From the NCBI RefSeq assembly GCF_003730115.1, contig NZ_RJVP01000001.1, positions 682,001 through 746,000 of the forward strand: 64,000 bases of DNA, written 5' to 3'. This DNA is from Pseudomethylobacillus aquaticus (GTDB taxonomy: Bacteria; Pseudomonadota; Gammaproteobacteria; Burkholderiales; Methylophilaceae). A model generated the notes under the pieces. That model saw only the letters and a list, made by a program, of their open reading frames with translations. It searched no databases and was not told the DNA's origin. A program made the position numbers and the translations under genes. Shown here piece after piece: positions 43,339 to 48,813 of the stretch (within the stretch, counting starts at the first letter, position 1; each line of letters starts with the position of its first letter).

Positions 43339-44073
43339 TTACCAGCGTCTATCTTTAGGCGTGTCCAGCAAGGGCCGCAGCTGCTGCGAGATGGTCTCGC
43401 GCGCGCGGAAGATGCGGGAACGCACAGTACCTATCGGGCAATTCATCAATGTCGCGATCTCTTCGTAGCTCAGGCCTTCGATCTCGCGCAAGGTGATCGC
43501 AGTACGCAACTCTTCCGGCAGGGAAGCCACCGTGTCATTGACTGTCTTGGCGATCTGCTTGCTCATCAGCTCCGTTTCCGGCGTGTCCATGGTGCGCAGC
43601 TCGTTGCCATCCTCGAAGTTCTCGGCGTCTTCGATCTCGATGTCATTGCTGACCTGCGGTCTGCGTCCCATTGAGACCAGGTAGTTCTTGGCCGTGTTGA
43701 TGCCGATACGGTACAGCCAAGTGTAAAACGCGCTATCACCGCGGAAGTTCGGCAAGGCGCGATACGCCTTGATGAACGATTCCTGCACCACATCCTCCAC
43801 CTCAGCCTGGTCACGTATCATGCGCGACAGCAGACGGCCCAGTTTGCGCTGGTACTTTTCCACCAGCAAACCGAAGGCACGCTGGTCGCCGTGCTGGGCA
43901 CGCTCAACCAGCGCCTGGTCCAGCTCGCGATTACCTGCAGCCGCATTGGTATTGGCACTTGCAGGTTTGGCATCTCCTGCCGGAAATTTGATCATGGCCG
44001 GAGTATAACCTTGTAGCTTGGTGTCGACGAATCCCAGACTGGAAAACTCTTGGAAATTTTTGCTGTTTATCAT
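43339..44073 (-). CDS. rpoE: RNA polymerase sigma-E factor (RpoE/AlgU)
   Basis: 244 aa from ATG 44073, which has AGGGAG seven bases before; a later ATG (43995) with weak site would remove the first 26 residues, which most RpoE proteins lack. Region 2: LVERAQHGDQRAFGLLVEKYQRKLGRLLSRM, VVQESFIKAYRALPNFRGDSAFYTWLYRIGINTAKNYL. Region 4: LPEELRTAITLREIEGLSYEEIATLMNCPIGTVRSRIFRARE. Directs the envelope stress response; the downstream genes are its regulators. Confidence 0.95.
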   Translation of the reverse strand: MINSKNFQEFSSLGFVDTKLQGYTPAMIKFPAGDAKPASANTNAAAGNRELDQALVERAQHGDQRAFGLLVEKYQRKLGRLLSRMIRDQAEVEDVVQESFIKAYRALPNFRGDSAFYTWLYRIGINTAKNYLVSMGRRPQVSNDIEIEDAENFEDGNELRTMDTPETELMSKQIAKTVNDTVASLPEELRTAITLREIEGLSYEEIATLMNCPIGTVRSRIFRARETISQQLRPLLDTPKDRRW

Positions 44074-45845: not shown

Positions 45846-46625
45846 TCAGGCTGCGCGGCTGATACCGAGCAACGCACCCTGCTGGCGCAGGTCCTCCAGG
45901 ATCTGGGTACCGAAGCCCACCACCATCTCCGTATCGGACTGACCCAGCTCACTGGCGATCTGCAACAGCGCCTGACGGCCATTCACCGTACCGGTTTGCA
46001 ACAGCGCCAGCAGCCGCGCTGTCACCGGGTTCAACTCCACAAAGCGTACCACGTCCTGCGGGTCGCGGAACACCAGCAACTGCACTGGTTCGACCGCTTT
46101 GGGTTTGAATTGCCTGGAGATGCGTTGCACCGGATAGTCATAACTGAGCAAAGCCAGTGCGGGCGCCAACACCGGCTGGCCCTCCAGCAGATCACCAGCA
46201 GTCTCCACACTGTCTGGCGCAACGGACACATCGGCCACCGCCAGCGCCATCTCCACCCACTCATAGTGGGCCAGATGCGGCAGGTAGGCTGGCAAGCGCA
46301 ACGCCGGATCATGCTGCTGGATCTGGCTCAGGTATTGCAGAAACTCTTCTGGGATCTTGCGGAATAGCGGGCTGCTGCAACGGTGATGGATGAAGAAGCT
46401 GCGCACCAGCCGGCGCCATAAACGCGCACCCAGTGCCAGCTGCGCCACCGGAAAGCAGGCTGATACCGAGCTGTAGAAATTGTTGAACACGATCTCCGTG
46501 TATACCTGCATGCGCTCGGCGCGCACCTGCGCGGGTTTGCGTACATGCCTGGGGTCACGCACATGTGCACAGAACTGTTGCTGATACTGCATGAAGCCCG
46601 GCAGGGCTGGAATGGTACTGGTCAT
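45846..46625 (-). CDS. BufC-type DUF2063 partner protein
   Basis: 259 aa. N-terminal DUF2063 helical domain (FMQYQQQFCAHVRDP, ERMQVYTEIVFNNFYSSVSACFPV, LVRSFFIHHRCSSPLFRKIPEEFLQYL) and a C-terminal winged/beta part (LLVFRDPQDVVRFVELNPVTARLLALLQ). In MNIO systems BufC/HvfC helps recruit the precursor to the maturase. It is last in bufA-bufB-bufC, 13 bp after bufB, and ends 9 bp from nadB (convergent). Confidence 0.9.
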   Translation of the reverse strand: MTSTIPALPGFMQYQQQFCAHVRDPRHVRKPAQVRAERMQVYTEIVFNNFYSSVSACFPVAQLALGARLWRRLVRSFFIHHRCSSPLFRKIPEEFLQYLSQIQQHDPALRLPAYLPHLAHYEWVEMALAVADVSVAPDSVETAGDLLEGQPVLAPALALLSYDYPVQRISRQFKPKAVEPVQLLVFRDPQDVVRFVELNPVTARLLALLQTGTVNGRQALLQIASELGQSDTEMVVGFGTQILEDLRQQGALLGISRAA

Positions 46626-46638
46626 GAAAAGGCTGTTA

Positions 46639-47535
46639 TCAGGCCGCCACTTTGGGCAGATACGGCGTGCCTACAGCCCACGCATCAGGCCTGTACGGCT
46701 CAGCCAGGCGTTGCATGGCGGCGATGCGATCCACTTCCTGCATCACGGTCTGCAGTGGCGGGATGTTGATATCGCGCTCCAGCAAGGTGGGAAAAGCACC
46801 ATACAGACGATAGGCTTCTTCCAGCAAGGCCCATACCGAGGCTATGACGTCCTGCCCATGCGTGTCGATGATCAAATCTTCGGCTTCGCGGTCATGGCCA
46901 GCGATATGCGCATAGACGATGCGCTCGCCGGGCAGGCCACGCAGGAAAGTGATGGGATCGAAACCGAAATTGACACTGTTGACGTAGACATTATTGATAT
47001 CGAGGTGCAGATCGCAATCCGCCTCGCTCAACACGGCATTGATGAATGTCAGCTCATCCATCTCGGCAATTGGCGCTGCCACATAGAAAGAAGCATTTTC
47101 TACCGCGATGCGGCGCTCAAGGATGTCCTGGGTGCGACGTATGCGAGCCGACACGTACTTGACCGCTTCTTCGGTGAACGGAATGGGCAGCAAATCGTAC
47201 ATATAGCCGCCATCACTGCAATAACTGAGGTGTTCGGTGTAACGGGTGATGCCATGCTGATCGAGAAAATCACGCACTTCATATAAAAACGATTCATTGA
47301 GCGCATCCGGCCCGCCCAATGACAGCGACAAGCCATGTGCTGCAATGGGAAAGCGCTCGGTGAACCATGCCAGCTGCCTGCCGACACGGCCACCGACGCC
47401 TATCCAGTTCTCTGGCGCGATCTCCACAAAACCCAGCGACTGCAACAACGCAGTCCCGTAAGCGGCCTGCACCTGGGGGATCAGCTCGCGCTTAAGCCCC
47501 AGGCCGGCACCTCGGATGACATGGACTGGATTCAA
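46639..47535 (-). CDS. BufB-type MNIO maturase (DUF692)
   Basis: 298 aa TIM-barrel multinuclear non-heme iron-dependent oxidase: GAGLGLKRELIPQV start, VEIAPENWIGVGG (metal-binding Glu/Asn block), HGLSLSLGGPDALN, TEHLSYCSDGG, LHLDINNVYVNSVNFG, HIAGHDREAEDLIIDTHGQDV and LLERDINIPP carry the expected His, Asp and Glu ligands. The family oxidises precursor cysteines to thiooxazole-type groups. It follows the precursor gene by 21 bp. Confidence 0.93.
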   Translation of the reverse strand: MNPVHVIRGAGLGLKRELIPQVQAAYGTALLQSLGFVEIAPENWIGVGGRVGRQLAWFTERFPIAAHGLSLSLGGPDALNESFLYEVRDFLDQHGITRYTEHLSYCSDGGYMYDLLPIPFTEEAVKYVSARIRRTQDILERRIAVENASFYVAAPIAEMDELTFINAVLSEADCDLHLDINNVYVNSVNFGFDPITFLRGLPGERIVYAHIAGHDREAEDLIIDTHGQDVIASVWALLEEAYRLYGAFPTLLERDINIPPLQTVMQEVDRIAAMQRLAEPYRPDAWAVGTPYLPKVAA

Positions 47536-47556
47536 CGCCAGGCTCCGCTCGTCAGC

Positions 47557-47883
47557 TTACTTCTTTTCAGCGCCACACTTACCGGTACCGCACTTGCCTT
47601 CTTTGGCCTTGTCACCACTGCAGGAACCTTCTTTGGCCTTGTCAGCAGAGCACTTGCCTTCCATGGCCTTGTCACCGCCGCAGGAACCTTCCTTGCCCTT
47701 TTCGGCAGCACACTTACCGGTACCGCACTTGCCGTCGGCACCCTTGTCAGCCACTACCATATAGCCGGAGGACAAGGTCTTCAGTGCGAATGGGTTCTCA
47801 GCGGCGCTCACCGAAGTAGCCGCCAGGCTGGCGACGAAAGCAGTGCCCAGAAGAGCAGCGAGGGTTTTGTTGGATGCATTCAT
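47557..47883 (-). CDS. BufA-type bufferin precursor (Cys-rich RiPP)
   Basis: 108 aa. A signal peptide (about 1-27, AATSVSAAEN) leads to a Lys/Glu/Gly-rich tail with seven cysteines, in repeats DGKCG, EGSCG, EGKCS, EGSCS, EGKCG plus two TGKC. These are variants of the EGKCG motif whose Cys becomes a copper-binding thiooxazole in bufferins/HvfA peptides (recent literature, from memory). The 3' half of the gene is an imperfect DNA repeat of about 36 bp. TAGGAGA precedes the ATG. Copper protection is the likely role. Confidence 0.9.
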   Translation of the reverse strand: MNASNKTLAALLGTAFVASLAATSVSAAENPFALKTLSSGYMVVADKGADGKCGTGKCAAEKGKEGSCGGDKAMEGKCSADKAKEGSCSGDKAKEGKCGTGKCGAEKK

Positions 47884-47959
47884 TTTGTATCTCCTAAATT
47901 GGATAAGTACTCGATTAAGTTCAGCTTATTGTTGCGAACTGCATGGTCATATACGTGCA

Positions 47960-48229
47960 TCAATACCCTCCGGATTCAGGTTTGGGGCTATGTTCCAGCC
48001 GGGCCGCGATGCGTTGCCGCGCCGCCGCCGTCAACTGCACATCGGCATCCTGCTCTGCATGGCTGCGCAATTTGTGCACCATGTCACGCAACAGCAGCAG
48101 CTGCTGACGGAACCGTTCGCATACATCACAGATCAGCAGATGCAAGCGCAGTGCAAAACGCTCACGCAGGCTCAAACGACGATCGAGCGATTGCGAAATC
48201 AACTGACTGGCTTGTTTGCAACTTAACAT
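47960..48229 (-). CDS. Zinc-finger anti-sigma factor (zf-HC2 type)
   Basis: 89 aa from ATG 48229 with ACAGGAAC upstream; an ATG at 48256 overlapping the sigma stop (TGATG) is the alternative. MLSCKQASQLISQSLDR is followed by HLLICDVCERF, giving a His-x3-Cys-x2-Cys zinc site with the early Cys as fourth ligand. No membrane helix, so it is a soluble ZAS-type anti-sigma factor binding the ECF factor encoded directly before it. It lies 76 bp before bufA. Confidence 0.85.
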   Translation of the reverse strand: MLSCKQASQLISQSLDRRLSLRERFALRLHLLICDVCERFRQQLLLLRDMVHKLRSHAEQDADVQLTAAARQRIAARLEHSPKPESGGY

Positions 48230-48255
48230 CACGGTTCCTGTAACAAAGGTTCGCA

Positions 48256-48813
48256 TCAACTGCCTAGCCAATTCAGCTCCAGGCATTTCCTCAGATTCAT
48301 CCGGGCACGATATAACATGACCCATGCGTTCGTCGTGCTGATATCCAGTTCCTTACAGATTTCTTCATTATCGGTTTCGTGCACTTCGCGCAGCATGAAC
48401 AATTGTGCCAGTTTGGTCGGCAAACGGTTCATGCACTCCTGCAACACCTGCAGGAACTGCTTCTGCTCCAGCTCGTCCTGCGGAGCGCCCCAGGCTTGCG
48501 GCTTGTCGGCCCAGTGACGCTGATCGTCCGCGAAGAAGTCATCCATGCCAGCCTCGTCCGGCAGGTCTTCACCCAGGTCTTCCACCACCTGCTCGCGTGA
48601 CTGCTTGCGGATGATGTCGATGATCTTGTGTTTGAGTATGCCGGTGAGCCAGGTGCGCGGTGCCGATTTACCAGCAAAGCCCTGATTTTGCATGGCAGCC
48701 AGCAGCGTATCCTGCACCGCGTCTTCGGCCAGGTGCGGGTCGCGCAGCCGCGCCAGCGCAAATCGATAAAGAAAATCACCGTGCTCGGTCAACCAGTCGT
48801 GCTGCGCTGCCAT
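48256..48813 (-). CDS. ECF sigma factor next to the bufferin genes
   Basis: 185 aa from ATG 48813 (GGGAGCAGG upstream); the longer frame to 48900 lacks family sequence. Region 2 has YRFALARLRDPHLAEDAVQDTLLAAMQ and APRTWLTGILKHKIIDIIRKQ. Region 4 has MNRLPTKLAQLFMLREVHETDNEEICKELDISTTNAWVMLYRARMNLRKCLE. Close linkage to the anti-sigma gene and to bufABC suggests that it controls the bufferin cluster, as ECF factors do in related species. Upstream 48814-48991 has no gene. Confidence 0.92.
   Translation of the reverse strand: MAAQHDWLTEHGDFLYRFALARLRDPHLAEDAVQDTLLAAMQNQGFAGKSAPRTWLTGILKHKIIDIIRKQSREQVVEDLGEDLPDEAGMDDFFADDQRHWADKPQAWGAPQDELEQKQFLQVLQECMNRLPTKLAQLFMLREVHETDNEEICKELDISTTNAWVMLYRARMNLRKCLELNWLGS

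Follow-up and report, generated by a model that had tools for sequence, protein, structure and literature searches.

The described systems closest to the gene cluster in this report are the HvfABC operon of Haemophilus influenzae, which is the source of oxazolin, the fontiphorin system FonABC, the Neisseria sigma-E operon NMB2140-2145 (NGO1948-1943) with its ngo gonophorin, and the Caulobacter bufferins Buf1 and Buf2 (sigF, CC3252). 5-Thiooxazoles, together with copper binding, have been reported for fontiphorin, oxazolin, and gonophorin (PMC13097082, 2026), and a later preprint agrees regarding oxazolin (PMC13419390). How captophorin maturases choose their Cys residues is still being worked out. 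Here we describe a cluster of five co-directional genes on the minus strand, positions 48813-45846, of a 64,000-nucleotide stretch of Pseudomethylobacillus aquaticus (Methylophilaceae) DNA (contig NZ_RJVP01000001.1, positions 682,001 to 746,000), referred to below as the window. Open reading frame (ORF) and domain analysis gave the transcription order as extracytoplasmic function (ECF) sigma factor, soluble zf-HC2 anti-sigma factor, precursor peptide, MNIO maturase, and DUF2063 partner. All five genes lie where a reading made earlier from the letters alone, the sequence-only reading, had placed them, and their content and order are observed directly. We consider it likely that the cluster is an HvfABC-branch captophorin operon, linked to an ECF sigma factor, in which both the precursor modules and the maturase have been altered.

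Family placement follows from the maturase and its partner, and the scores were read directly against profile cut-offs. The maturase gene (46639..47535, 298 aa, TTG start; PF05114, 326 bits) encodes a protein that passes the NCBIfam HvfB model NF003818 with 398 bits (cut-off, 360), falls below the cut-off of the BufB model NF050167 (251 bits; cut-off, 310), and matches the structure 3BWW with an E value of 7.5e-72. Its partner (45846..46625, 259 aa; DUF2063/RRE, with PF09836 and PF22106 NGO1945_C) passes HvfC NF050145 (272 bits; cut-off, 142) and matches 3DEE (E, 5e-11), the structure of N. gonorrhoeae PME1 (PMC13097082), so that the window partner has a gonococcal structural counterpart. The precursor (hvfA/bufA-like, 47557..47883, 108 aa), with a Sec-type signal peptide recognized by eye and repeated G-K-C motifs as in oxazolin and fontiphorin, has its repeats just upstream of the MNIO gene, but the exact EGKCG motif occurs in only one of the seven. 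It scores 24.5 bits against the KCG-repeat domain model NF050137 (cut-off, 19.5), although no single stretch passes alone, and it does not pass the HvfA equivalog NF050188 (39.9 bits; cut-off, 95). A Pfam scan of the precursor gave no match, DUF2282 included, and the 6- or 12-Cys make-up of bufferins is absent. Since the maturase passes HvfB and fails BufB, and the partner passes HvfC, the cluster is by its sequence a captophorin cluster of the HvfABC EGKCG/oxazolin (Lys-Cys) branch and not a bufferin cluster in the strict sense. The earlier label of a bufferin-type RiPP (ribosomally synthesized and post-translationally modified peptide) cluster is thus right for a copper-RiPP-type MNIO cluster and wrong for bufferins proper.

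Codon reading of the precursor gave seven Cys motifs in the order DGKCG, TGKCA, EGSCG, EGKCS, EGSCS, EGKCG, and TGKCG, among them the EGSCG, EGSCS, and two TGKC motifs that the sequence-only reading had described. Four of the Cys residues form two tandem units and three are isolated. Compared with oxazolin and fontiphorin, Ser takes the place of Lys before two Cys, and Gly after Cys gives way to Ser at two positions and to Ala at one. Both Ser residues preceding Cys are coded TCC and the Lys residues AAG; because these codons are three base changes apart, the Ser sites look like separate repeat lineages rather than single slips. The choice of Gly or Ser after Cys had been written down in the earlier reading, but no conclusion was drawn there from this position, which we call +1.

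To place these variants we used the window together with 78 fetched loci of 84 HvfB-type Methylophilaceae genomes (G024, G041, G060, G081, and G086 were left out), and three further samples. A class sample of 80 loci yielded 56 precursors after 16 loci without a precursor candidate and 8 candidates that were not repeat-bearing had been removed; a set of 80 named loci contributed the 18 non-Methylophilaceae loci with a precursor; and an order sample of 59 rows was reduced to 53 by setting aside L343 (not HvfB type), the duplicates L344, L346, and L347, and others without a precursor. At each locus a script took as precursor the ORF near the maturase that had the largest number of G-x-C motifs, and the mature part was cut at NPF or at residue 25.

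The motif statistics obtained in this way set Methylophilaceae apart from the other families of the class. Across 449 Cys in the 79 Methylophilaceae precursors, the preceding residue is Lys at 257, Ser at 120, Ala at 34, and Asn at 22, and the following residue is Gly at 233, Ser at 158, and His at 35; Ser, His, or Asn together occupy +1 at 199 of the 449. The 56 class-sample precursors, all from other families, contain 423 Cys, of which 373 follow Lys and 412 precede Gly. In Methylophilaceae, Lys precedes 215 of the 223 Cys that lie exactly five residues from another Cys, compared with 42 of the other 226, while outside Methylophilaceae (127 loci) the corresponding values are 478/505 for tandem Cys and 184/268 for the others. 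A locus-by-locus comparison of the Lys/Arg/Gln fraction gave the same picture: it is higher in tandem than in isolated units in 54 of the 64 Methylophilaceae loci that have both kinds, lower in none, and equal in 10, compared with 32 higher, 4 lower, and 44 equal among 80 loci outside. Judged from these sequences, tandem units appear to retain Lys, which isolated units have often lost, with the same trend, weaker, outside Methylophilaceae, and there appear to be two module types, a tandem GKC-xxG-KC module with Lys and an isolated EG[S/A/N]C[S/G/H] module. Because motifs of the same kinds recur in related loci, the variants in the window are more than chance, and its EGSC sites are, by sequence, isolated units of the Methylophilaceae-wide type.

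The maturase differs from its relatives as well. In an AlphaFold model of FonB, both neighbors of the substrate Cys, the preceding Lys and the following Gly, lie against Phe250, which adjoins the proposed catalytic base Asp249, and a logo of 100 Lys-Cys enzymes shows both this Phe and an Arg to be conserved (PMC13097082). In the same study, control of both flanks by this single Phe was proposed and tested with a few mutants, among which F250D showed wider tolerance (PMC13097082). Aligned through the conserved G-L-G-x-R-R and E-R-D-F stretches, which are shared with 3BWW, Lys15-Arg16 and Asp255-Ile256 of the window maturase probably correspond to Arg15-Arg16 and Asp249-Phe250 of FonB, a mapping drawn from these stretches. 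The residue changes are plain across the family: 78 of the 79 Methylophilaceae enzymes lack the Phe and have Ser (30), Thr (20), Asn (11), Ile (9, the window included), or another residue (8) in its place, and all 79 have Lys instead of the first Arg. The Phe is present in 78 of the 80 enzymes of the class sample, with the Arg pair in 74, and in 52 of the 59 rows of the order sample, one row of which is not HvfB type. Relaxed +1 residues follow 206 of the 444 Cys in the Methylophilaceae loci without the Phe, compared with 10 of 773 outside Methylophilaceae, and in bulk they are seen only where the Phe is missing. The sole Methylophilaceae enzyme that bears the Phe, L045 (the same as L230, from Methylobacillus sp. 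MM3), is accompanied by a precursor with only Gly after its five Cys.

These observations bear on an earlier statement that the maturase is specific for EGKCG. Strictly taken it does not hold, as FonBC still acts when Lys at position 3 is replaced by Ala, Arg, or Thr (PMC13097082). At position 5, after Cys, Ala alone was accepted for Gly among the variants tested, and the others blocked processing (PMC13097082). Given this tolerance before Cys, EGSCG is predicted to be modified even by an ordinary enzyme, and by analogy with FonBC the doubtful sites in the window peptide would be EGKCS and EGSCS. The mixed motifs had been put forward as a natural test of the maturase; the variants are real, but since FonBC is tolerant before Cys and fussy after it, the sharper test lies in EGKCS and EGSCS and not in EGSCG.

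By analogy with the homologues, from which chemistry, copper binding, export, and sigma control are all carried over, the cluster would work as follows. Some signal would lift the hold of the soluble zinc anti-sigma factor on the sigma factor and raise transcription of the operon; the MNIO-partner pair would oxidize precursor Cys to 5-thiooxazoles before Sec export; and the mature peptide would bind copper in the periplasm. The Phe-less maturase would most likely take the altered modules as substrates, and modification would then reach most or all of the seven Cys. We infer such widened specificity for a remodeled maturase shared by Methylophilaceae, in which loss of the Phe and the change of Arg to Lys may have made room in the pocket to either side of Cys; the precursor would have co-evolved into its two-module form, EG[S/A/N]C[S/H] would be a new substrate class, and some modules would add a His metal ligand. 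This part of the proposal is tentative, with a chance that we put somewhat short of even. What argues for it is that some Methylophilaceae precursors, e.g., L079 and L099, have Gly after just one of six Cys, so that an enzyme restricted to Cys-Gly would have almost no substrate there, and at least some enzymes of the family may therefore accept Ser or His after Cys.

Several results weigh against a simple connection between the Phe and the +1 residue. In a midpoint-rooted maximum-likelihood tree of 105 enzymes, L045 lies near the base of Methylophilaceae, its exact place being weakly supported (join, 82/49); the Phe was probably lost only once or twice, the coupling rests on one clade, and simple counts of Phe against +1 are not independent. 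Six enzymes outside Methylophilaceae that lack the Phe and have readable precursors (L199, L322, L330, L331, L334, and L350) are paired with 43 Cys followed by Gly at 40, Ala at 2, and another residue at 1, and because Gly or Ala is kept at 42 of the 43, loss of the Phe is insufficient to change the substrate. Ser, His, and Asn are all absent from +1 in 25 of the 78 Methylophilaceae loci without the Phe, and 7 of 122 Phe-bearing loci have some +1 residue other than Gly or Ala. A strict coupling of Phe to Gly had at first seemed clear (Fisher p, 4e-17 on 153 loci); weakened by the tree and by the six outside enzymes, it is offered here as a hypothesis. Three of those six, L330, L331, and L334, all of family f225, share with Methylophilaceae the replacement of the first Arg by Lys, a hint that changes at the two sites go hand in hand.

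The same evidence may be read in two other ways. Which sites are converted may depend on the +1 residue rather than on whether Lys or Ser precedes the Cys: the five Cys before Gly or Ala would be oxidized, those of EGKCS and EGSCS would stay thiols, and the peptide would offer a mixed thiooxazole/thiol ligand. The blocking of FonBC by position-5 changes other than Ala, with position 3 left tolerant, fits this account (PMC13097082), as does the near-constant Gly at +1 in other families of the class, but the maturase is kept where the precursor has a single Cys-Gly. FonBC needed two repeats to act and once modified a Cys-Tyr substrate, and Ser is not stated among the position-5 variants in the part of the study available to us (PMC13097082). 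We regard this selective conversion as doubtful. Still more improbable, in our judgment, is that the isolated EG[S/A/N]C modules are spacers or plain-thiol metal-binding repeats that arose from repeat growth, with the tandem modules alone being modified. The sharp split between tandem and isolated units in the residue before Cys would be expected of such spacers, and of two shortened FonA peptides the two-repeat one alone was a substrate (PMC13097082); yet isolated EGSCG or EGNCG modules accompany an ordinary Phe-type enzyme in several other families, and replacement at position 3 was tolerated by FonBC (PMC13097082). As a setting in which to test the one-Phe pocket model, Methylophilaceae provide dozens of natural enzyme-substrate pairs in which the Phe is gone and both flanks of Cys have changed, with exceptions near the base of the family and outside it. 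These pairs are useful as a natural test of enzyme target choice.

The upstream half of the cluster consists of an ECF gene and a soluble zf-HC2 anti-sigma gene, identified as such in the sequence-only reading and borne out here by Sigma70 domains, PF13490, and the Cys/His pattern. The ECF gene (48256..48813, 185 aa, Pfam Sigma70_r2 and r4_2) scores 221 bits against TIGR02943 (cut-off, 162), and the anti-sigma gene (47960..48229, 89 aa), 26 bp after its end, scores 69.6 bits against NF052368 (cut-off, 50). Both lie within longer ORFs, and their starts are most likely ATG 48813 and ATG 48229. Counted from the latter start, the anti-sigma protein has Cys4 and His30-x3-Cys34-x2-Cys37, so that it shows the sequence features of a zinc anti-sigma (ZAS) protein: His-x3-Cys-x2-Cys, an N-terminal Cys, and an adjoining ECF gene.

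Neisseria has an operon of this kind with a sigma/ZAS pair, and the kind is therefore already known. The Cys/His positions of Neisseria MseR are identical to those of the window anti-sigma protein (PMC2893595), and in N. meningitidis the operon encoding MseR was transcribed at 6- to 36-fold higher levels once MseR was lost (PMC3240639). Sigma-E expression in N. meningitidis was unchanged by oxidative stimuli (PMC2893595), and the induction by metal or thiol stress that the sequence-only reading had suggested for the window pair is a conjecture. We read NMB2141-2143 as precursor, maturase, and partner, which the sigma-E papers call hypothetical. The two operons differ in that the sigma pair is downstream of the precursor in Neisseria and upstream in the window, and in that the window cluster has neither a DoxX gene nor the published promoter consensus; the three DoxX matches of the genome are all elsewhere. 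The missing DoxX gene counts against the proposed reading of the cluster. The Caulobacter bufferins likewise combine MNIO-DUF2063 machinery with an ECF sigma factor, in that case sigma-F, which responds to chromium and cadmium (PMC3511200), but the Caulobacter anti-sigma factor is a DUF1109 membrane protein (PMC3511200) and that of the window a soluble ZAS protein.

The pairing is widespread in Methylophilaceae. In 71 of the 79 loci, co-directional ECF and ZAS genes are found within 2.9 kb upstream; of the eight loci without both, L093 and L112 have little upstream sequence, and the ZAS gene is still seen in L112. A pattern scan found the Cys/His arrangement in 65 of the 78 fetched loci. Among 150 Methylophilaceae genomes, with ECF counted at 60% identity or more and kinship not corrected for, 72 have HvfB and ECF, 12 HvfB alone, 5 ECF alone, and 61 neither. 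In the 80 class loci from other families both genes were found upstream only in L158 and L172, and ZAS alone in L142 and L200, in a search that used the window proteins as queries and may miss distant pairs. Both genes are upstream in 22 of the 59 rows of the order sample. Nine further rows of that sample, from family f225, have the order precursor-maturase-partner-ECF, with an ECF protein 37 to 42% identical to that of the window and a ZAS match in seven; this gene order matches the Neisseria operon, and f225 is probably Neisseria-like.

An exclusive link between the sigma factor and the hvf genes was rejected, as the ECF-ZAS pair occurs alone in some genomes. In G001, G082, G025, and G129, none of which has an HvfB-type match, no hvf genes directly follow the pair, a point against tying it to the cluster; it probably has other targets too. 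In L370 (G001) and L372 (G025), the pair is kept and other genes follow, in L372 apparently flhF as judged by eye. The pair could thus be a general stress switch that happens to lie beside the cluster, with hvf one of several targets or none, an account that we think rather unlikely. The Neisseria sigma-E regulon, which also holds msrA/msrB (PMC3240639), shows such breadth, but the operon itself is a main sigma-E target there (PMC3240639), and the constancy of the upstream, same-direction pair in Methylophilaceae is hard to square with mere proximity.

The promoter evidence is mixed. Matches to the Neisseria sigma-E consensus, GTMAGBWTT, 12 to 13 bases, CGTCTAAH (PMC2893595), were scored upstream of 71 ecf and 78 precursor genes of Methylophilaceae. 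In the window, the best sites had 7 mismatches before the precursor and 5 before ecf, no better than chance, so that no promoter was recognized there, and for the Methylophilaceae ecf regions as a whole the mismatch counts equal those of one simple shuffle; the window result counts against a Neisseria-type control of the cluster. The precursor regions match slightly better than one shuffle. A Neisseria sigma-E-like promoter stands out in L094 (G145 contig C92), with 1 mismatch in 17 before the precursor and 3 before the nearby ECF gene; none of 20 shuffles of the 78 precursor regions gave a site with 1 mismatch. The L094 ECF protein is divergent, 47% identical to that of the window, and no closer to the f225 ECF proteins than the window protein is. 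In other families, 7 of 129 precursor-start regions had 3 or fewer mismatches, compared with 16 in ten shuffles of all 129. A Neisseria-type promoter therefore occurs in some relatives, and not in the window or in most Methylophilaceae. De novo searches found dyads and k-mers enriched upstream of ecf; part of this enrichment reflects kinship among the loci and, by eye, the end of the preceding coding sequence. Four-base dyads common to the regions upstream of ecf, the precursor gene, and msrA in the genome of the window were few and, judged without a control, seemed due to chance; they were discarded. By eye, a TGATTGAAT or TGCTTCAAT element ends about 7 bases before the sigma-factor ATG in many Methylophilaceae loci, e.g., L074, L079, and L089; it resembles the extended -10 box of a leaderless message and is absent from the window.

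The motif variant is real and Methylophilaceae-wide, while the peptide class and the sigma/ZAS link are already in print. Among the papers listed in literature searches on captophorins and on MNIO in Methylophilaceae or Methylotenera, with supplements and most subscription journals outside their range, none joins Methylophilaceae to such clusters. A landscape paper names sigma factors for Buf1 clusters, and the part of it available to us lists none for the EGKCG precursor group (PMC12452194); in the present loci, the EGKCG-type clusters of most Methylophilaceae are linked with a pair made up of an ECF factor and a soluble zinc anti-sigma factor. The same paper describes EF-hand chimeras (PMC12452194) of the kind seen by eye in the Nitrosomonadales precursors L271, L275, L280, L282, L290, and L292, where a short KCG region is joined to EF-hand-like repeats.

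Some features lie around the cluster or elsewhere in the genome. On the other side, facing the cluster, is a nadB-type gene (FAD_binding_2 family; named by eye), and beyond it, about 1.8 kb past the cluster end, lies a separate ECF gene (43339-44073) with an RpoE match (TIGR02939, 313 bits). Among the genomes scanned, the nearest named one by maturase is Methylobacillus flagellatus L1B, at 94% identity. A second MNIO locus of the same genome, L109 (G000 contig C8, 22321-23103), is on another contig; its enzyme passes the BufB model (384 bits; cut-off, 310) and is preceded by a short ORF that resembles a lipoprotein gene and carries repeated C-K motifs, so that the genome probably carries two types of copper RiPP.

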